This document shows positions 4,654 to 15,301 of a stretch of DNA of 37,830 nucleotides, piece after piece (position 1 is the stretch's first letter; each line of letters opens with the position of its first letter). A program made the position numbers and the translations under genes. Source of the DNA: an uncultured Planctomyces sp. (GTDB lineage: Bacteria > Planctomycetota > Planctomycetia > Planctomycetales > Planctomycetaceae); assembly GCA_937904325.1 (NCBI GenBank), contig CALGTK010000429.1:1-37830 (forward strand). The letters run 5' to 3'. Below the pieces are notes generated by a model. The model was not told the DNA's origin. It did not search any database and worked only from the letters and a program-made list of their open reading frames with translations.

Positions 4654-4694
4654 GCTTTGCTGAGTTCGTTCAACTCTGCATGCGACCATATCGA

Positions 4695-4721
4695 AGCCCG
4701 CTCAATCGAGCGGGCTTTTTT
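4695..4721 (+). terminator. intrinsic terminator after sulfhydrylase gene
   Basis: A perfect 8-bp stem, GCCCGCTC (4696-4703) and GAGCGGGC (4708-4715), with a 4-nt loop AATC, is followed directly by a run of six T. An A-T pair extends the stem. This is a textbook intrinsic terminator about 40 nt after the stop codon. Its position also argues against starting the next gene at 4680. Confidence 0.9.
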
Positions 4722-4802
4722 GTTATCAGCCGCTCTCGTTGGAGACTAGAATTTTCTGTTGATACGCTGCTCCAGTCAGCCACTACTCAGGATGAATGGA
4801 TA

Positions 4803-6044
4803 ATGGGTCTTCTCAGTCAATTCTTCGGACCTCCCAGTCAGGATCAATTTGCAAAGACCATCATGCGCGCATTTCGCGATGCCGGCGACAGCCGTAAGTT
4901 CGTTTACGAAGCCGATCAATTCCGACTGGTTGTGGCAGGGGACGAGGAATCCGACGACTCACCATCAGCCGAAGTGCTGAATCTGCACAACTTCTACGCC
5001 GAGCACTGCAACCTTTTACGAGGCCTGCGGAAGGAGCATCTCAAGCAGGTCGTTCGCGGAGTGTTGCAGGGCAAGATCGAGATGCCGGACGAGTTCGCTC
5101 ATGCCGCTCCGGATTTGCGGCCTCGGATCTGGCCGCGGTCGATGTTCGCAAAACTTGAGCTTCAGCAACGAATCGAGGGTGACAACGAAGTTGACGTTCC
5201 GCGTTACCTGATCGGCAACAATCTTTCGCTGGGACTGGTTTACGATCTGCCGCATTCGATGAGGTCAATTTCGGGTGATGACCTGAAGGGCTGGGAGATT
5301 TCGTGGTACGAGGCGATGGAAGCGGCGAAGGAAGCACTTTCCGAACTGGAGTTCGTCGTCGCAAAGATCGGCGGCCATCTTTACGCATCGGCTTCGGGCG
5401 ATAACTACGACGCGTCCCGCTTGATCCTGATCGATTTCATTCGTCAGATGGAAGTCGACGGCGACCATATCGCGATGATCCCCAACCGGGACACGCTTCT
5501 GGTGACCGGATCAAACGATGACGAAGGCATGGCAATGATGGCCGAGCTTGCCAAAAAGGCACTGGCAGATCCTCGCCCGCTGGGAGCGACGCCGGTTCGG
5601 CTGCACGACGACGAATGGGTTGACTGGATGCCTCCGCCGGGACATCCGTTGCGAGACAAGTTTCGCGAACTGGAGCGACAGTTTTTCTACCTGGAATATG
5701 CCGATCAGAAAGAATCGCTTGAGCAGCTCTACGAGAAAGAAGGTGTCGACGTTTTCGTGGCAACGTGCTCGGCCGTTCGGAACCAGGATACCGAAGAAAT
5801 CTTCACATACTGCGTCTGGTCAGAAGGCGTCAATGCTCTGTTGCCCGTTTGCGACAAGGTCATCCTGGGAGCCAATGGTCAGTCCGGACAAATGGCCGAC
5901 TGGGACAAAGTTCAAGCCATCACGGGCAAACTACTGAACGAGCACGAAACTCTCTACCCGCCGCGACTTCAAGTCAGCGACTTCCCAACGCCAGCCCAGC
6001 TCGAACTCATCGGCGGAGAACCGCTCGGTGCCGACCAGGGCTAG
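4803..6044 (+). CDS. DUF1444-like protein
   Basis: A 413-residue soluble protein of unknown function. The middle part resembles DUF1444 (YtpQ-like): DNYDASRLILIDFIRQME, then GDHIAMIPNRDTLLVTGSNDDEGMAMM, matching the family's aspartate-alanine-serine and PNRD signatures as I remember them. No signal peptide or membrane segment is visible. The ORF is open from 4680, but that start would place the upstream terminator inside the gene, so the ATG at 4803 (MGLLSQFFGPPSQ) is preferred, with AGGA at 4789-4792. It stands alone between a terminator and an IS remnant. The family call is moderate; no biochemical role can be stated. Confidence 0.65.
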   Translation: MGLLSQFFGPPSQDQFAKTIMRAFRDAGDSRKFVYEADQFRLVVAGDEESDDSPSAEVLNLHNFYAEHCNLLRGLRKEHLKQVVRGVLQGKIEMPDEFAHAAPDLRPRIWPRSMFAKLELQQRIEGDNEVDVPRYLIGNNLSLGLVYDLPHSMRSISGDDLKGWEISWYEAMEAAKEALSELEFVVAKIGGHLYASASGDNYDASRLILIDFIRQMEVDGDHIAMIPNRDTLLVTGSNDDEGMAMMAELAKKALADPRPLGATPVRLHDDEWVDWMPPPGHPLRDKFRELERQFFYLEYADQKESLEQLYEKEGVDVFVATCSAVRNQDTEEIFTYCVWSEGVNALLPVCDKVILGANGQSGQMADWDKVQAITGKLLNEHETLYPPRLQVSDFPTPAQLELIGGEPLGADQG

Positions 6045-6784: not shown

Positions 6785-8623
6785 CTACCAGCGAGAAATC
6801 GCGTCCAGGTCAACGCGGCGGTGTTTTGGATCGGCTTGCAGGCAATTTTGAAGGAATGCACTGATTTCAAGAGACAGATTGTCCATGTCTGGCAGTTGCC
6901 AGTTCTTGTGCCGGTCTACGATATCGGTGAGTCCTATGTCCGCAATCAATTCTTTGCCAGTCAAAAGTTTCCACGCCATGCAGCCAAGGGCGAAAAGGTC
7001 AGCCTGCACGTCCGGTGGTGCTCCCTGAAGTTGCTCAGGTGCCATGAAACGTGGTGTTCCAGAGATGAGTCGCGAGCAGTTGCCCTCTCCGTTATCGACG
7101 GGCTTGGCGAGGCCAAAATCCATAAGCTTCACGTTGCCGTCTGACGTCAGAAGGACATTCGAAGGTTTGATGTCTCGATGGACGATGCCTTTTGAGTGGG
7201 CGTAGCTCAGCGCAGCTGCAAGCTGCGCCATGACTTTTCGAAATTGATTTTCGGCGAACGCGCCATTTTCCCGAACGTACTGATCCAGTGAGACGCCATC
7301 ACAAAATTCCAGCACAATGAAGAATGACCTAAACGCTTTAAAACGCCCCAGCATGCGAACAATATGCGGATGATCAAACTCTTCGATCATTCTTGCTTCG
7401 CTTTGAAATAGTTTGAGAGCATTGGCATCGTAAATCAGTCTGTGACTCATCATTTTCAAAGCAACCGGCGTCATGGTCTGCTCGTCCAAAGCTTCATAGA
7501 CGATAGCCATGCCACCCTGGCCAAGTCGTTCAGTAATGCGGTAACGGCCGAATCGTTTTCCACTGAGGGCGTCGTGGTCCTGCCCGCCGAGACGCTGAGC
7601 AAGCAACTGAGTCAGTACTTGCCCAATGACAGGGAAGTTGCTGGCCAGTTCCTGAAAGATTGGCAGCGGGAGAAACATTGCCGAGACTTTCGTAGTGGCA
7701 ACGACGCTTGCTGTTCTTAGCTGATCAGTCAGCAGTGCCATTTCCCCAAGGGTGGAACCAGGACCGCATCTGGCGATTTCATGATCCTGACTGAGTTGAT
7801 CGATGCTGAGAACTGTCACTCTGCCGTCTGTCAGAAAGTAAAGCCCATCTGCGGCATCTCCCTCTCGTATCAGATGCTCGTTCGGCTGAAAGTGGCGTTC
7901 ATCGAGTCGTTCTTCAATCTTCTCGAGAATGACTGGCGGCAATTGCGAGAAAGGTTCCGTGCTACCCAGTAGCGACGATTGATCGTGACCAAAGGACTCC
8001 GAATGGCAGGCCAATGAACTTTGAGCTGAATCACCAAAGTCCAACTGGACAGTCGCTGGGTCAAACGGCTTTTCATCCAGCACCCGAGGTTGCGTCGGGC
8101 CTTCAGGAATCGTCGGTTCGTGGCCACTTCCGGAAGAGCAGACAGCGTCAATGATCAACGTCTCGGACAGACCGTCGGAACGCGACAGATCAACGAGTTG
8201 TCCCTGAAACGTCGGGAATCGAGTGCAGAACTTCTTAAACGCGACATTCGAACTGGATTCGGCGTCCTTCAGAACCAATAGAAATTCTTGAGCAACGATC
8301 TGCCATTCGAACCTTGCCGAACCGTCGCCGATTCGAGTTCGTAGAAATGTGCAATACGTTTCTGCAGGGACGGCTTCTTCCGTGCTGTGCCGTCGATGTT
8401 GATCAGCCAGCAATGCATCGACACATTGCTGCGACGTGAATTCATTCTTTTGATGCACGAAGTCGAAAACGTCGGTGGCCTGCTGACTCGACGAAGACAA
8501 CGCAAGGAACTCAGCGGCGGCCGGACGCAGCAATAGTGATTCAAGGTCGAAGTCAACGTCACAGCGAGTTGTCAAACCGCTTTCGGCGAAGCTCGCCGTT
8601 TCTTTTTGCGGTACAGCATTCAT
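6785..8623 (-). CDS. Ser/Thr protein kinase with cyclic-nucleotide-binding domain
   Basis: A 612-residue protein with three parts. Residues 1-230 form a polar region I do not recognise. Residues about 232-348 are a cyclic-nucleotide-binding-like domain (HLIREGDAADGLYFLTDGRV, then GEMALLTDQLRTASV). Residues about 360-612 are a Hanks-type kinase with GQGGMAIV, Lys390 in VALKM, HRDIKPSN (Asp484), DFG (Asp502) and APE (528-530), so the kinase is probably active. No transmembrane segment is seen, unlike many PknB-type kinases. It is the last gene of a minus-strand operon, 33 nt after the J-like membrane protein gene and downstream of a Hsp70 gene. Ligand binding could control kinase output, but the ligand is unknown. 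Confidence 0.92.
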   Translation of the reverse strand: MNAVPQKETASFAESGLTTRCDVDFDLESLLLRPAAAEFLALSSSSQQATDVFDFVHQKNEFTSQQCVDALLADQHRRHSTEEAVPAETYCTFLRTRIGDGSARFEWQIVAQEFLLVLKDAESSSNVAFKKFCTRFPTFQGQLVDLSRSDGLSETLIIDAVCSSGSGHEPTIPEGPTQPRVLDEKPFDPATVQLDFGDSAQSSLACHSESFGHDQSSLLGSTEPFSQLPPVILEKIEERLDERHFQPNEHLIREGDAADGLYFLTDGRVTVLSIDQLSQDHEIARCGPGSTLGEMALLTDQLRTASVVATTKVSAMFLPLPIFQELASNFPVIGQVLTQLLAQRLGGQDHDALSGKRFGRYRITERLGQGGMAIVYEALDEQTMTPVALKMMSHRLIYDANALKLFQSEARMIEEFDHPHIVRMLGRFKAFRSFFIVLEFCDGVSLDQYVRENGAFAENQFRKVMAQLAAALSYAHSKGIVHRDIKPSNVLLTSDGNVKLMDFGLAKPVDNGEGNCSRLISGTPRFMAPEQLQGAPPDVQADLFALGCMAWKLLTGKELIADIGLTDIVDRHKNWQLPDMDNLSLEISAFLQNCLQADPKHRRVDLDAISRW

Positions 8624-8656
8624 GCAACGTTTCCACCGTGACAGGTTGACCGTGAG

Positions 8657-9724
8657 CTACTTCCAGTAGACCTTCAGGATGTAGAAGATCACGATCGGCG
8701 GCACGATCAACGTTGTCAATGAAGGCAAGTTTGCAAAGAGCCCCTGGGTCACTCCCAGAATGTATGGTTTCATCACAAACTGGTCGACCAGCACTGACCC
8801 GATCACTGACCACAGCATGAAAATCTTGCCCAGGTTCTTGCGTTCGGCTTGCTCGTCCTTCGATAGTTGAGTGAACGCTGTCTGTGTTCTCTGCTTCACC
8901 TTTGCTTTGGGTTTCGAAGTTTTTTCCTTTTTGCCGCCGCCTTTAGAGCCGTCTCCAGAAGGTGCAAGAGCAACGTCGCCAGCCGCTTCTTCCGCGGCGA
9001 TCATTTCGTCCATTTCGGAGTAGTACCTGCTGATTCCGTCGATGATTCCCCGCGGAGTTGCAAGGGCCCGTCGAACTGGCAGGGTGTACCGAAGACGTAG
9101 TTCATCCTCGAGTTCGTGCGTAATCTCATCGGCACAGGCGACAAGCAGCACGTCTTCGTCGATAAACAGTGGCAGGATCGTGTTTCGCTTGGCGACAGGC
9201 TGCGGAAGTCGCTTGAGAATCCGAAATTCAGGCGCCATATCCTCCAGGTCGACGTACGGAACGCCAAGTTCCGCTGCGAATGCCTGAGTGGCCACCTGAT
9301 CGTCAACGAGCTTCATCTGCACGACGGTGTCGCGCATCGTCAGCCCGTGAGATTCCGAATACTCCTGAGCTTCTTTCATCTGGTCGCGGTCGATGTGGCC
9401 CAGTTTGACCAGGACGCGTTCCATCGGCACAACGGCTGATTCGTCTTCTTCGAAGACTCGACCGAGGCTCTCGTCGTACTCGCGTTTTCGCTCCGGATCC
9501 GTCAGGCAAAGCATTGCCTTGGCGAGTTCGTTAAGCAAATTCTGCGAAATAACAGCGTACTGTCCGCTCGCATACTTGCGGACGTGAGTGTTGAGCTTCT
9601 TGTAGTTTTTGCGAACTTTGTCGATCGAATCTTCGAATCGGACTAGTCGCAGAAGTTCGTATTGATCGGGTGGCCGAGGTCCGTCGGGAATTCCCAACCA
9701 TTCTTTATAGACGTCCAGTTCCAC
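8657..9724 (-). CDS. J-like / MshEN-like membrane protein
   Basis: A 355-residue protein of unusual build. Residues about 20-90 resemble a DnaJ J-domain (DQYELLRL at the start, LTDPERKREYD at the end), but the HPD motif that stimulates Hsp70 is absent; the loop reads THVRKYASGQ. Residues about 100-235 look like the N-terminal domain of GspE/MshE ATPases (VLVKLGHIDRDQMKEA, LVDDQVATQAFAAELGVPYVDLEDM), without a clear RLG-type c-di-GMP motif and without any ATPase domain. A lysine-rich linker (265-285) leads to two C-terminal hydrophobic segments (about 300-318 and 335-352). The GTG at 9724 is chosen for its AGGAG site and family-like start VELDVYKEWLGIP. It lies between Hsp70-like and kinase genes. 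Confidence 0.8.
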   Translation of the reverse strand: MELDVYKEWLGIPDGPRPPDQYELLRLVRFEDSIDKVRKNYKKLNTHVRKYASGQYAVISQNLLNELAKAMLCLTDPERKREYDESLGRVFEEDESAVVPMERVLVKLGHIDRDQMKEAQEYSESHGLTMRDTVVQMKLVDDQVATQAFAAELGVPYVDLEDMAPEFRILKRLPQPVAKRNTILPLFIDEDVLLVACADEITHELEDELRLRYTLPVRRALATPRGIIDGISRYYSEMDEMIAAEEAAGDVALAPSGDGSKGGGKKEKTSKPKAKVKQRTQTAFTQLSKDEQAERKNLGKIFMLWSVIGSVLVDQFVMKPYILGVTQGLFANLPSLTTLIVPPIVIFYILKVYWK

Positions 9725-9732
9725 GCTGGTGA

Positions 9733-9737
9733 CTCCT
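9733..9737 (-). promoter_or_regulatory. ribosome binding site deciding GTG start at 9724
   Basis: On the minus strand AGGAG (plus-strand CTCCT) lies 8 nt before the GTG at 9724. The longer in-frame start at 9763 is a TTG. The 13 extra residues it would add do not look like part of the protein. Confidence 0.7.
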
Positions 9738-9782
9738 GAGAGCTGGCAATGCTGAGCAGGCAAACGTTGCTGCGAAACTCAG

Positions 9783-9815
9783 ACAGCGGAAACATGACAG
9801 TCATGTTTCCGCTGT
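9783..9815. repeat. perfect 15-bp inverted repeat in operon spacer
   Basis: ACAGCGGAAACATGA at 9783-9797 is the exact reverse complement of 9801-9815, separated by only 3 nt. It lies between the Hsp70-like stop (9838) and the start of the J-like gene (9724). Neither side carries the T-run of an intrinsic terminator. It could be a processing or stabilising hairpin that sets relative expression, a weak terminator, or a protein-binding palindrome. Confidence 0.85.
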
Positions 9816-9837
9816 TAAGTGACAATTGCTGACAGCC

Positions 9838-11418
9838 TTACTCGACTTCGTACTGTTGAGCGAGCCCTGTCATTACATCGATATTTTCTTCTGTTCCGCC
9901 GAGGTTCTCGCGAACGATTTCAGTCGCAGCTTCGGTGTCGCCAACAAGCTCTCTGGCAGTAACGTGAATTCGACCAGCGGAGTCGTATCGGTAAGTCACT
10001 TCGACGGGCGATCCTTTTGGAAGTCCGGCTGGCAGATCGTAAATGCGGAAATCACCAATCTGCTCGCAGGCCATAGGGTCTGGCGAATCGCCTTCCAGAA
10101 CGGAAACGTGAATCCGTTGCTGGTTGTCCGAGTTCGTGACAAACCGCTGCGTTCGTTCGAACGGAATCGATGTGTTCCTCGGAATCATGATGTGATTGAT
10201 CTTGCGAGTTTTTTCGTTCGGATCAGTCACCTTCACACCCAAAGAGTGCGAGTTAACGTCGGAAGTCGTCACAGAACGCAGTCGATTGATAATCGATTTG
10301 CCCATGCGTGATTCACCACCTGTCGCACGAGCTTCGAGGATCGCGGCGTGTATAGCGGCGCCCTTAGCAACGGCTTCTTCCGGAGTGACTTCGCGACTCG
10401 GCTTGCGCTTACAAACTTCGACCAGCATCTGCTCGACAACCGGCATGTTTGTTGAACCGCCGACCAGAACGACTTCGTCCAGGTTTTCAGCTTCTACGCC
10501 CGACTGCTGCAGCACGAGTTCGGTTGTGTCACGAGTTCGTTGCATCAGGTCGCCAGTCATCCGTTCAAAGTCGCCGCGAGTCAGCGACAGTGTCAATGAC
10601 TTGCCTTTGTAATAAACCGGGACGGCGGCCTGAGCTCGCGTACTAAGGTCGCGTTTTGCTTTCTCGCATTCCTGAGCAAGAATCTGCACCGTTTCCGGAT
10701 CTTCTCGTGGGTCTTCGCCGTGCTTATTGGCGAACTGCTCTGAGACGTGATCAAGGATTCGGCGGCTCCAGTCGAGGCCGCCCAGCATCACGTCACCGTC
10801 TGTAGCAAGCACTTTGAAGTTGGTTGGCGTGTACCGAACGACCGTGACGTCGAACGTTCCGCCGCCGAGGTCGTAAACGAGGATCGTTTTCTCAGTCTGT
10901 GCAAGTGCGGTATTACCGAGCTCACCGCGTTCCCAGGCGTAAGCCAGCGTGGCAGCTGTAGGCTCGTTGATAATGTCGATAATATTTAGACCAGCGATGC
11001 GTCCCGCATCCTGCGTGGCCTTTCGGCGAACGTCGTTAAAGTAGTACGGGACGGTGACGACGGCGTTGGCGATTTCACCGATGTGCTTTTCCGCGTCCTG
11101 CTTCATCTTCTTGATGATCAACGCGGAGATGAATTCTGGAGTCAATTTCTTGTTCTGATAAACCACGTGAAAATCTGCGTTGCCCATTTCACGTTTAATG
11201 GCTTCGACGACGTTGGAGGGGTCTTCGACTGCAATCCGTTCGTTCGACGGGCCAACCACAACTCTCCCATCGTCTGACAACAGCACGACCGACGGCGTGA
11301 TAACTCCCTCATCCGCGTTTGTGAGACAGTGAGCCAATCCGTCATCGCCTAATTGAGCGATAGTTGAGAATGTCGTTCCAAGGTCGATACCTACGGTTTG
11401 TCCGTCGAGCAGCTTCAT
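9838..11418 (-). CDS. Hsp70 (DnaK-like) protein lacking the lid
   Basis: A 526-residue Hsp70 family ATPase. The nucleotide-binding domain (about 1-365) carries GIDLGTTFSTIA, VYDLGGGTFDVTVV and VVLVGGSTNMPVV. A beta substrate-binding domain follows (about 385-505: HSLGVKVTDP, IPRNTSIP, GDFRIYDLPAG). The protein ends about 20 residues later, so the alpha-helical lid of canonical DnaK (about 605-640 residues) is missing. It is therefore more likely a specialised paralogue than the housekeeping dnaK, and no grpE or standard dnaJ is adjacent. The ATG at 11418 has AAGG about 6 nt upstream. It is the first gene of the operon with the J-like membrane protein and the CNB-kinase. Confidence 0.93.
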   Translation of the reverse strand: MKLLDGQTVGIDLGTTFSTIAQLGDDGLAHCLTNADEGVITPSVVLLSDDGRVVVGPSNERIAVEDPSNVVEAIKREMGNADFHVVYQNKKLTPEFISALIIKKMKQDAEKHIGEIANAVVTVPYYFNDVRRKATQDAGRIAGLNIIDIINEPTAATLAYAWERGELGNTALAQTEKTILVYDLGGGTFDVTVVRYTPTNFKVLATDGDVMLGGLDWSRRILDHVSEQFANKHGEDPREDPETVQILAQECEKAKRDLSTRAQAAVPVYYKGKSLTLSLTRGDFERMTGDLMQRTRDTTELVLQQSGVEAENLDEVVLVGGSTNMPVVEQMLVEVCKRKPSREVTPEEAVAKGAAIHAAILEARATGGESRMGKSIINRLRSVTTSDVNSHSLGVKVTDPNEKTRKINHIMIPRNTSIPFERTQRFVTNSDNQQRIHVSVLEGDSPDPMACEQIGDFRIYDLPAGLPKGSPVEVTYRYDSAGRIHVTARELVGDTEAATEIVRENLGGTEENIDVMTGLAQQYEVE

Positions 11419-11893
11419 GATGTACCTTCGCGAGAGTTCGCTGTTGAAGTGAACGGATTGTGATTGCAGACGCTCGTGTTAAATCCTTGCCGCCCTGCGA
11501 TTGCGGCCGATTTGAGCCGATAGCCTGAGATGATTCGTGGTAATTGTCATCAGACCGATGTTCAACCGCCGTGTTGAGCACCCGGAAGTGCCAGCCCGGT
11601 CATCCTCAATAACGCTGACGTTTTCAGGATTGGCGACTGGAGTGCCCTCGTAATCGTGCGGGAGCCCGTAGATTCCGAGAGTTATGCATTCTGCCACTCA
11701 CGTTTCAGGGATGCAAGCAGCCAGGCACACACACATGAGACAGTGTTGAGTTGACCACTACTTTGTCGGCTCAGTGAAACTCGCAGGCACGTGGGAATGC
11801 GCCGTGCCTTTTCAGCACTCTTCGCTGAAAACCTGGAGCGACACGCGTATCATTCATGGCGATATCAACTCCAATTGGCTGGGATTTCGCCTC
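11419..11893. other. divergent intergenic region, Hsp70 operon / histidine kinase
   Basis: 475 nt between two divergent transcription units; it should hold promoters for both. I see no convincing -35/-10 pair and no CIRCE element for the Hsp70 gene. Two adjacent hairpins lie in the histidine kinase leader (listed separately). A 72-codon minus-strand frame with a GTG start (11479-11697) has no clear ribosome binding site or recognisable family and is not annotated as a gene. Confidence 0.5.
11785..11831 (+). repeat. two adjacent hairpins in histidine kinase leader
   Basis: The first stem is AGGCACG (11785-11791) with CGTGCCT (11803-11809) around an 11-nt loop. The second is TTTTCAGC (11809-11816) with GCTGAAAA (11824-11831) around a 7-nt loop. 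They abut, sharing one base, about 60 nt before the chosen ATG at 11894. No T-run follows. They may form a leader RNA structure or a protein-binding site. Confidence 0.55.
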
Positions 11894-14800
11894 ATGACGC
11901 ACATCCTGATTGTGGAAGAACCTTCTGATGACAGTTCGAGGCTGAGGGAATTTCTAAATTCTTCAGGCTTTGAAACGTCAACAGCCTCGGCGGTCGACGA
12001 CACAATCGCCGCGGCAACAGCTGAGCCTACTCCCTGCATGATCGTGATTGACTCTCTTCTTACGGATGGTGCTGCGTGGGAACTTTGTCGTCGATTGCGC
12101 TCGCCAGAATTCACTCGTCACATTCCAGTGATCGTGCAGACAACCGCTGGTGTTGCTGAAGAGGTCCTTGAGGGGCTGGAGGCTGGAGCGGATGGTTACG
12201 TTGCTAGAGGACTGCCGAATGAAACAACAGCTTTGCGTATTCGACAGGTGCTGGAGCAGGTGTCGGCTAGCGAGCAGGCAGATTCGAACAACTATGACAA
12301 ATCGGTCATCGAGGAAGATCTCAGTCATGCCGAGATACGAATCAACGGTCGCGACTACAAAATCGACACTTCACGACAGCAACTGCTGAATGTGCTGGTC
12401 TCGGCGTTTGAGGATCTCGACCGAGTCAAAGAGCACCAGAAAAAAGAACTCGCTCGTCGCCGTGAAGTGGAACAGCGGCTGAAGGATTCGGAAGCACTGT
12501 ACGAGTCGTTAGTCGAAAGTCTTCCGTTATATTTGTTTCGGAAGGATCTCGACGGCAAGCTGACATTCGGTAACCAGCGATACTTTGAATTACTCAAATC
12601 GTCACCTGAAGAACTGATCGGTCTTACTGATTACGACCTGTTTCCGAAGGAGCTGGCCGATAAGTACACGGCAGACGATCGTCGAATTATCGACAGTCGT
12701 GAAATTTACGAAGACATCGAGTCTCATGCCGGAGCAGACGGCAGCACCTTGTATGTGCACGTTTTGAAAGCTCCTGTCTATGACGCGGCCGATAATGTAA
12801 TCGGGATTCAAGGAATCTTCAGAGATGTCACGGCTCGGCATGAAGCGGAAGCGGCTTTGAAACGTGAGCAGTTTCTACTGACAAGTCTGATGCAGAACAT
12901 TCCGGACAACATCTTCTTCAAGGATTGCGACGGCCATTACTTGCGAATCAACCGAGCAATGGCCGATCGATTTGGGCTGGAGTCTCCAGCCGTCGCCGTC
13001 GGTAAAAAAGCCCAGGACTTCTTTGACGGCGTCTACTCCGACCGTATCAAACGGGACGAGCAACAGATCGTGAAAACCGGCAAACCGGTTGTCGGTGAAG
13101 AAGAACTCGTCGACTGGCCCAACGGATCGCAGACGTGGGTCTCTGTCATCCAGATGCCGATCCGCGAAGACGACGGATCGATAGCCGGGCTGTTTGGTTT
13201 GTCGCACGACATTTCCGATCAGAAACTCGCCCAGCAGGCCATGCAGGAAGCTCGTGACGCGGCAGAAGCCGCCAGCGAGGCGAAGAGCAACTTCCTGGCA
13301 AACATGAGCCACGAAATCCGCACCCCCATGAACGCAATCATCGGGATGACCGAACTTGTTCTTGATACATCGCTGCAGTCGACGCAGCGTGAATACCTGT
13401 CAATGGTGCAGGAGTCTGGCGAGTCGTTGCTCAGCGTCATCAATGACATCCTCGACTTCTCAAAGATCGAGGCCGGGCGACTGGAACTTGATCCTCGACC
13501 ATTCTCACTACGGGAGAATGTCGGCGACACTCTGAAGTCGCTGGCCGTGCGTGCTCATCGAGGGCAGATCGAAGTTGCCTGTCATATCGGGCCGGACATT
13601 CCCGAATTTCTAACCGGTGATGCAGGCCGACTTCGACAGGTCGTGATTAACCTTGTCGGCAACGCGATCAAGTTTACCGAGCACGGTGAAGTCGTCGTTG
13701 ACGTTTCAAACTGCACAGCCGACTTCGGAACCAGTTCCAAAACGTCCGAAGCTGATTCAGCAGGTAAAAACGCCTCTGAAGCATCTGCCGATTCTTTGTG
13801 GCTGCACTTTCAGGTTAAAGATACCGGCGTCGGCATCGCCAAAGAAAAACTTCGCCGCATCTTCGAAGCGTTCGAGCAGGCTGACACGTCGATGACCCGG
13901 CGTTATGAAGGAACAGGTCTTGGCCTTGCCATTTCGTCACGGTTGGTCGAATTGATGGCCGGCCGGATTTGGGTCGAAAGCGAAATCGGCAAAGGCAGCA
14001 CTTTCCACTTTACGGTGCAGTTTGAACCGGCTCCCGAAGCATTCCAGACGCGGGGCAGCGAACCAACGGCCAGTCTCGACGGGAAAAGAATTCTGGTCGT
14101 CGATGACAACGCAACGAATTGCCGAATTCTCGATGAAATTCTTCGAAACTGGCTCACTCGGCCGGTCGTTGTTGACGGAGCGGCAGCCGCGTTTCAGGCA
14201 CTTGAAGAAGCGCAAGTGTCTGGACAACCGTTCAATCTGTTGTTGACCGATGCCAACATGCCGAATACCGATGGCTTCACTCTCGTTCAACGGCTTCGAG
14301 AGTCCAATGATCTGGACATTCCTGTGATCATGATGCTGACGTCGGGGGGGCGTCCAGGAGATATTGGTCGATGTGGTGAACTTCAAATTTCTCACCACCT
14401 GATGAAACCAATCAAACAATCCGAGTTGTTCGACACGATCGTTGAAGCGTTAAACGTGACCTCGGCGACAGACGAAGGTTCATCGCATGGCGCAGGTCCA
14501 CGTCCGCACACGCGAAGGCTTAACACACTGCTGGCAGAGGACAGTACAGTCAATCAGCGGCTGGCCATCGCCCTGCTTGAAAAGTGGGGACATGACGTGA
14601 CCGTCGCAAGCAACGGTAAGATCGCCGTCGAAACGTGGAAACAGGGCGGCTTCGATGTAATTCTGATGGACATTCAGATGCCCGAGATGGACGGTCATGA
14701 CGCCACGCGAGCGATTCGCGATTTCGAAGCAGGTACTGGCAAACGCATTCCGATCATCGCTATGACGGCTCACGCTTTGAAGGGCGACGAAGAGAAATGC

Positions 14801-15301
14801 CTCGCCGTCGGCATGGACAGCTACATCTCGAAACCGATCCGCGCTCCGCTGCTGTACGACAAGCTGTCAGATATTTGTGACTCCACTTCGGTCGATGGAT
14901 CAACTGCGTCAAAGGCGGATACTGCTTCGCCGGAAGAAACGTTCGAAACATCGGTGGCAAATGACGATGCGGTTGACTGGAACGCCGCGTCGGAAGTGGT
15001 TGGTGGCGATCATGAACTGCTTGGTGAAATTCTGGAAGCTCTGGTCGAAGAATGTCCACAGCAGTTTGCTGCTCTGGAAAAATCCATCGCATCGCGGGAT
15101 TCGGCAAAGGCACGTCGAGCCGCTCATACAATTCTCGGCAATATGCGAGCGATCGCGGCGAACGATGCGATGGACAAGGCGGGAGTTGTGGAAAGTCTTG
15201 CCAAAGAGTCAGAATTCGACGTGATCGCCGAACCGGTTGAAGCTCTCAGGAAAGCAACGAATTCGGTCTACCAGGCGATCCGCAAGTTTCAGGCAGAGTA
15301 A
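11894..15301 (+). CDS. hybrid histidine kinase, REC-PAS-PAS-HK-REC-REC-Hpt
   Basis: A 1135-residue, apparently cytoplasmic signalling protein. In order: receiver 1 (about 1-122, Asp53); a linker with coiled-coil character (about 165-200); PAS 1 (about 198-318); PAS 2 (about 325-445); HisKA with phospho-His473 in NMSHEIRTPMN; HATPase (NAIKF at 590-594, DTGVGIA, GTGLGLAI); receiver 2 (Asp786); receiver 3 (Asp926); and a C-terminal Hpt domain with His1078 in AAHTILGN. In receiver 1 the conserved lysine is replaced by Arg105, and in the Hpt the lysine usually three residues after the histidine is leucine. The ORF is open from 11774, but the ATG at 11894 gives the receiver start MTHILIVEE. selB follows 85 nt downstream. 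Input signal unknown. Confidence 0.95.
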   Translation: MTHILIVEEPSDDSSRLREFLNSSGFETSTASAVDDTIAAATAEPTPCMIVIDSLLTDGAAWELCRRLRSPEFTRHIPVIVQTTAGVAEEVLEGLEAGADGYVARGLPNETTALRIRQVLEQVSASEQADSNNYDKSVIEEDLSHAEIRINGRDYKIDTSRQQLLNVLVSAFEDLDRVKEHQKKELARRREVEQRLKDSEALYESLVESLPLYLFRKDLDGKLTFGNQRYFELLKSSPEELIGLTDYDLFPKELADKYTADDRRIIDSREIYEDIESHAGADGSTLYVHVLKAPVYDAADNVIGIQGIFRDVTARHEAEAALKREQFLLTSLMQNIPDNIFFKDCDGHYLRINRAMADRFGLESPAVAVGKKAQDFFDGVYSDRIKRDEQQIVKTGKPVVGEEELVDWPNGSQTWVSVIQMPIREDDGSIAGLFGLSHDISDQKLAQQAMQEARDAAEAASEAKSNFLANMSHEIRTPMNAIIGMTELVLDTSLQSTQREYLSMVQESGESLLSVINDILDFSKIEAGRLELDPRPFSLRENVGDTLKSLAVRAHRGQIEVACHIGPDIPEFLTGDAGRLRQVVINLVGNAIKFTEHGEVVVDVSNCTADFGTSSKTSEADSAGKNASEASADSLWLHFQVKDTGVGIAKEKLRRIFEAFEQADTSMTRRYEGTGLGLAISSRLVELMAGRIWVESEIGKGSTFHFTVQFEPAPEAFQTRGSEPTASLDGKRILVVDDNATNCRILDEILRNWLTRPVVVDGAAAAFQALEEAQVSGQPFNLLLTDANMPNTDGFTLVQRLRESNDLDIPVIMMLTSGGRPGDIGRCGELQISHHLMKPIKQSELFDTIVEALNVTSATDEGSSHGAGPRPHTRRLNTLLAEDSTVNQRLAIALLEKWGHDVTVASNGKIAVETWKQGGFDVILMDIQMPEMDGHDATRAIRDFEAGTGKRIPIIAMTAHALKGDEEKCLAVGMDSYISKPIRAPLLYDKLSDICDSTSVDGSTASKADTASPEETFETSVANDDAVDWNAASEVVGGDHELLGEILEALVEECPQQFAALEKSIASRDSAKARRAAHTILGNMRAIAANDAMDKAGVVESLAKESEFDVIAEPVEALRKATNSVYQAIRKFQAE

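Follow-up and report, generated by a model that had tools for sequence, protein, structure and literature searches.

A conserved planctomycete gene pair encoding a lid-less Hsp70 and a J-like membrane protein that has no HPD motif

What is the conserved unit in a planctomycete locus where genes for a chaperone, a J-like membrane protein and a protein kinase follow one another? The window considered here is the whole 37,830-nt stretch of DNA that was analysed, from an uncultured Planctomyces sp. Its list of open reading frames (ORFs) places all three genes on the minus strand. They run from HSP (9838–11418), which encodes a lid-less, non-canonical Hsp70 of 526 aa, through JM (8657–9724), which encodes a 355-aa membrane protein made up of a J-like domain, an MshEN-type domain and a two-helix membrane domain, to the gene of a Ser/Thr kinase with a cyclic-nucleotide-binding (CNB) domain (6785–8623), a lineage-specific neighbour. 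The spacers measure 113 nt between HSP and JM (9725–9837) and 33 nt between JM and the kinase gene (8624–8656). JM starts with a GTG codon at 9724, with AGGAG 8 nt upstream, and this start matches those of its orthologues. The initial annotation had described an operon of three co-directional genes in this order, and its gene order, its HSP–JM spacer and its domain assignments were borne out, including those of the kinase, in which a CNB domain (residues 242–328; PF00027, 73.6 bits) precedes the kinase domain (residues 361–602; PF00069, 198.9 bits). The domain make-up of the three genes is not a product of chance.

The three genes differ in how widely they are kept. All 150 genomes sampled within the window's order contained JM, and all 60 genomes checked for HSP contained it; in 49 of the 60 loci fetched, HSP lies directly upstream of JM and is co-directional with it, and by the same 60-locus table the adjacent pair occurs in 38 of 47 genera. 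The two genes are unlinked in the remaining 11 genomes, where a full or near-full HSP orthologue (66–70% identity) is encoded elsewhere. In a second collection, made up of named genomes and overlapping the first set (for example Gimesia, Thalassoglobus, Schlesneria, Planctomicrobium and Fuerstiella), 72 of the 79 informative loci kept the HSP–JM arrangement. Beyond the window's order, nine genomes from five other families encode full-length JM, and HSP adjoins it in five of these (G256, G390, G393, G399 and G416, from four other families). In contrast, of the 150 genomes from the order only 12 had the kinase-specific N-terminal region, and in the second collection the kinase gene stands next to JM at 7 of 80 loci. 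Clustering of the neighbouring ORFs revealed no other conserved partner near HSP–JM, and kinases clustered only as a general family. The proposal in the initial annotation that the three genes are neighbours in related genomes and form a membrane-anchored chaperone unit thus holds, as a conserved layout, for HSP and JM and fails for the kinase. Because the kinase is local and found in few genomes, the three-gene operon is not the conserved feature: the conserved core is the HSP–JM pair, which the CNB kinase joined recently and locally. A literature search, largely confined to papers outside subscription, returned no description of this pair.

HSP is an unmistakable member of the Hsp70 superfamily. 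It matches PF00012 with E = 1.3e-120 (403.9 bits against a cut-off of 20.6), its residues 9–524 covering profile positions 2–518 of 599, and because the match stops at position 518, the alpha-helical lid (SBD-alpha) is missing, as the initial annotation had suggested. The AlphaFold2 model (pLDDT 80.7, pTM 0.79) places a nucleotide-binding domain (NBD) at residues 1–383, SBD-beta at 384–501 and a single short C-terminal helix at 510–522, and it resembles the ATP state of DnaK (7krt and 4b9q; TM 0.83–0.84). Mean column identity is 76% among 28 orthologues. The catalytic residues of the actin-fold ATPase, D8, K70, E171, D194 and T199 (DnaK numbering), are invariant in 61 of 61 orthologues, and P143 and R151, which complete the set of catalytic and signalling positions compared, are likewise unchanged. 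The NCBIfam DnaK score is 388 against a cut-off of 822, and HSP lacks three features of canonical DnaK, namely the hydrophobic linker, the residues R167 and Q378, and the lid. In a FastTree phylogeny, the non-canonical planctomycete Hsp70s, HSP included, separate from canonical DnaK as one clade (support 0.975), within which HSP groups with one paralogue from the window's own genome (0.99). That genome encodes a second lid-less Hsp70 of 525 aa in the same clade (L154:6992–8569, G000 contig C459), which ends in YRVE. The C-terminal tail of HSP, LAxxYxVE (9838–9891, minus strand), is near-invariant in the order and is reminiscent of the EEVD tail of eukaryotic Hsp70.

JM is divided into three parts. 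The J-like domain (residues 1–92; 9449–9724, minus strand) was recognised from the helices of the predicted model, from Foldseek and from a weak profile match; the Pfam DnaJ profile stays under its cut-off (E = 0.28), and the CbpA J-domain profile matches weakly (E = 0.14). In the AlphaFold2 model (pLDDT 88), helices at residues 21–24, 34–49, 54–75 and 77–86 have a pLDDT of about 90, and Foldseek aligns this part with solved J-domains such as 6rzy (TM 0.84 of the target, 1.7 Å). The J fold, with antiparallel helices II and III together with I and IV, is therefore clear in the predicted structure without being significant in Pfam; the HPD motif is absent. The second part (residues 98–238; 9011–9433, minus strand) is an MshEN or GspE/PilB N-terminal-type domain, identified by PF05157 (56.6 bits against a cut-off of 23.1) and by Foldseek (7lkm PilB-N, E = 1.1e-7; also 5htl MshE). 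Both domains had been named in the initial annotation. The third part (residues 289–353; 8666–8860, minus strand) is a pair of hydrophobic helices, at 289–322 and 336–353 in model and sequence, which we predict to be a membrane anchor. MshEN receptors of c-di-GMP carry two copies of the 24-residue motif RLGxx(LVI)(LVI)xxG(LVI)(LVI)xxxxLxxxLxxQ (PMC5013675), and this motif was found in 0 of 69 JM orthologues in either its strict or its relaxed form; the NF053729 score of JM is 17.9 against a cut-off of 38. Because all eight planctomycete PilB-like relatives tried lack the motif too, its absence is a weak discriminator that separates JM only from the Vibrio cholerae type, and c-di-GMP sensing by JM is unsupported.

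How could such a J-like domain meet such an Hsp70? In the DnaK–DnaJ complex, D35 of the HPD motif bonds with R167 and Q378 of DnaK, and H33 contacts the interdomain linker at L391 (PMC8215388). All of these positions are altered here. The R167 position is occupied by Asp (D148 of HSP; 10975–10977, minus strand) in 61 of 61 HSP orthologues and by Arg in 15 of 15 canonical planctomycete DnaKs; at the Q378 position the same two sets have His and Gln, respectively, with no exceptions. Where DnaK has the hydrophobic linker VLLLDV, that of HSP reads RSVTTSDV (10255–10278, minus strand), and the L391 position holds T, A, S, M or Q across all 61 orthologues, against L in all 15 DnaKs. On the other side, JM has Arg49-Lys50-Tyr51 (9572–9580, minus strand) in the helix II–III loop where DnaJ has HPD; none of the 69 orthologues has HPD, and all of them have Arg at the H33 position. 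For want of HPD, we reject a role for JM as a genuine J-domain co-chaperone of DnaK. The opposite charges of the HSP Asp and the JM Arg are suggestive of a contact and are not proof of one. The Asp is common to 13 of 18 non-canonical planctomycete Hsp70s examined and so is not specific to JM as a partner, and the Arg persists in genomes without HSP, so that HSP alone does not explain it; for these reasons we rejected the charge reversal as a demonstration of co-evolution. Helix II of JM stays basic, and the DnaK acids that would face it, E206 and E217, are R or K in HSP. Because these groups would repel each other in the canonical pose, a changed pose fits better.

On this evidence we favour, with a probability of roughly 0.55, the view that HSP and JM constitute a dedicated membrane-anchored Hsp70/J-like pair that would interact and function through a rewired, HPD-independent contact. 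JM would sit in the cytoplasmic membrane by means of its two C-terminal helices, with its J-like and MshEN-type domains predicted to face the inside of the cell, and the J-like domain would recruit the lid-less HSP to the membrane. Because the ATPase core and SBD-beta are kept, HSP most likely cycles with ATP and would hold a client, or a client segment, loosely, having no lid with which to trap it. Neither side retains the contact between HPD, R167 and the linker, so binding has to rely on a rewired one, which may bring the invariant Arg49 and Lys50 of JM near the invariant Asp148 of HSP as a putative charge contact. The MshEN-type domain is probably a docking site for a partner protein or a target and not a c-di-GMP sensor. 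A bolder generalisation is that a whole planctomycete branch of Hsp70s and J-like membrane proteins swapped the universal HPD–R167 handshake for another contact, for instance one between Arg/Lys of the J-like protein and Asp148 of the Hsp70, and operates as an orthogonal membrane-bound chaperone circuit beside DnaK–DnaJ; this we entertain only tentatively and consider rather unlikely.

Other explanations of the locus give the kinase, or mere proximity, a larger role. The initial annotation had suggested a three-gene unit of chaperone and kinase, whose CNB kinase would act by phosphorylation to report or control the state of the chaperone. The gap between JM and the kinase gene is about 33–36 nt in the window's genus, and the two genes also stand together in three further genera (g17, g32 and, in one of its two genomes, g45). 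In the window's genus, where 33 nt and no hairpin separate them, JM and the kinase gene are probably co-transcribed. However, the HSP–JM pair is complete without the kinase in the great majority of genomes, the scarcity of the kinase-specific region noted above weighs against a shared unit, and in G110 about 15 kb separate the kinase gene from JM, and the two are on opposite strands. A unit of this kind is very improbable, and phosphorylation-based reporting or control would be at most a lineage-specific add-on. The HSP–JM spacer also tempers the picture of a single transcript. It has a minimum free energy (MFE) of −41.6 kcal/mol (z −3.21; 0 of 200 shuffles were as good) and contains a 44-nt hairpin of 20 pairs and one bulge (9777–9820, minus strand). 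No T-run follows it and a consensus scan did not list it, so an intrinsic terminator after HSP was rejected and the element is terminator-like or processing-like only. Of the 47 orthologous spacers that could be tested, 21 had a best local hairpin significant at the 5% level, where about 2 would be expected, and the sequences of these hairpins differ. The hairpin suggests that the expression of HSP and JM is at least partly uncoupled, which argues against tight co-expression and makes "operon" the weaker word in the initial annotation; it may set the level of HSP above that of JM.

Could the adjacency itself be a relic of gene order, with HSP an ordinary spare chaperone and the J-like part of JM a generic protein-binding module that never touches an Hsp70? 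Many unrelated planctomycete proteins do carry J-like domains without an Hsp70 neighbour, the two genes lie apart in the 11 genomes described above, and four genomes (G361, G436, G370 and G352), which belong to two families, have kept JM but have no HSP orthologue. Against this, in these same four genomes the J-domain scores fall to 46–98 bits, compared with 118–123 in five comparably distant genomes outside the order that have HSP, whereas the MshEN scores overlap (108–132 without HSP, n = 4; 115–143 with it). The comparison, drawn from a small sample of four genomes in two families, suggests that where HSP has been lost only the J-like part of JM decays, and a decay so specific to the J-domain is at odds with a relic. 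HSP–JM adjacency moreover spans at least five families, and independent neighbourhoods of this type exist, in which other non-canonical planctomycete Hsp70s adjoin unrelated HPD-less J-like membrane proteins. In G367 a protein with J-like and transmembrane (TM) segments is divergent to such an Hsp70; in G370 (L221:6101–8440) a protein with J-like, TM, Ig-like and FGE-sulfatase domains is divergent to a lid-less Hsp70; and in G211 (L212:4938–8869), a distant relative within the phylum, the pairing recurs independently, with a lid-less Hsp70 gene in tandem with a downstream gene whose product combines two HPD-less J-like domains, a TM segment and two PDZ domains. Among the profile-scored J-like loci there were two such Hsp70 pairs, against 0.07 expected by a rough estimate. 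We therefore think it quite improbable that the arrangement is a relic. A closer competitor accepts the complex and holds it to be stable and largely non-cycling, with HSP as a structural or regulatory subunit and JM as a platform that might act upon the canonical DnaK system or hold it in check. The lost lid, the altered linker and the missing HPD contact are in keeping with this, and there are precedents in the HPD-less J-like domain of Pam16, which acts by dimerising (PMC3806816), and in the non-canonical Hsp70 Ssz1 bound to its J-protein Zuo1 (PMC7083937). Yet every ATPase residue checked is kept in HSP, although a subunit with a purely structural role could dispense with them, and JM, having no HPD, is unlike Zuo1 in that it is not expected to stimulate a canonical Hsp70. 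This alternative seems to us unlikely.

The dedicated HSP–JM pair that we prefer resembles several known systems and coincides with none of them. With DnaK–DnaJ it shares a homologous Hsp70 ATPase core and SBD-beta, J-type helices, the order of an Hsp70 gene followed by a J gene, and an ATP-docked model; it departs from them in that HSP has neither lid nor hydrophobic linker and carries R167 to D and Q378 to H replacements, and in that JM lacks both HPD and client-binding beta domains and has a predicted membrane anchor. Because the lid, linker, R167 and HPD are all wanting, HSP–JM falls outside the canonical DnaK–DnaJ families and is a new form of Hsp70/J pairing. Pam16/Tim16 of the mitochondrial import motor is, like JM, an HPD-less J-like domain at a membrane and tied to an Hsp70 system (PMC3806816); unlike JM, it pairs with a true J-protein, Pam18, and its Hsp70 is canonical, and no second J-protein was found beside JM. 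Ssz1–Zuo1 of the ribosome-associated complex similarly joins a non-canonical Hsp70 to a dedicated J-protein (PMC7083937), but the J-domain of Zuo1 works and acts on Ssb, whereas JM has no working J-domain and no ribosome-binding part was seen in it. The MshEN and GspE/PilB N-terminal proteins agree with JM in fold and profile match and differ from it in that JM has no secretion ATPase and, in all 69 orthologues, no c-di-GMP motif.

Why might such a pair matter? In every Hsp70 tested, stimulation by a J-protein is held to need the HPD motif (PMC8215388). An allele-specific suppressor, R167H/D35N, shows that the HPD contact can be re-paired, as reported in PMC5519331. With replacements on both sides, this natural and conserved pair offers a direct test of whether HPD is dispensable for driving or recruiting an Hsp70; the same cells keep an intact canonical DnaK and DnaJ, which are built-in controls, and HSP–JM would supply orthogonal Hsp70/J parts.

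Some further observations concern related Hsp70 loci and the flanks of the pair. At L223:4814–8545 and L222:4896–11570, a non-canonical Hsp70 with a C-terminal membrane segment is encoded near a soluble lid-less Hsp70, directly in tandem with it in L223, so that planctomycetes also have Hsp70s with a membrane anchor of their own. L329 (G020:C1:3914000–3927000) contains two DnaJ-domain ORFs of about 510 aa near a divergent Hsp70 of 593 aa and is apparently another Hsp70/J cluster. In the window, a gene divergent to HSP (11774–15301, plus strand) encodes a hybrid histidine kinase of 1175 aa with three receiver domains, PAS, HisKA, HATPase and Hpt, and this neighbour is kept in the window's genus (L038–L041) and in G119 (L043). 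A DUF1444-like protein (28.1 bits, residues 189–297) is encoded at 4680–6044 on the plus strand.
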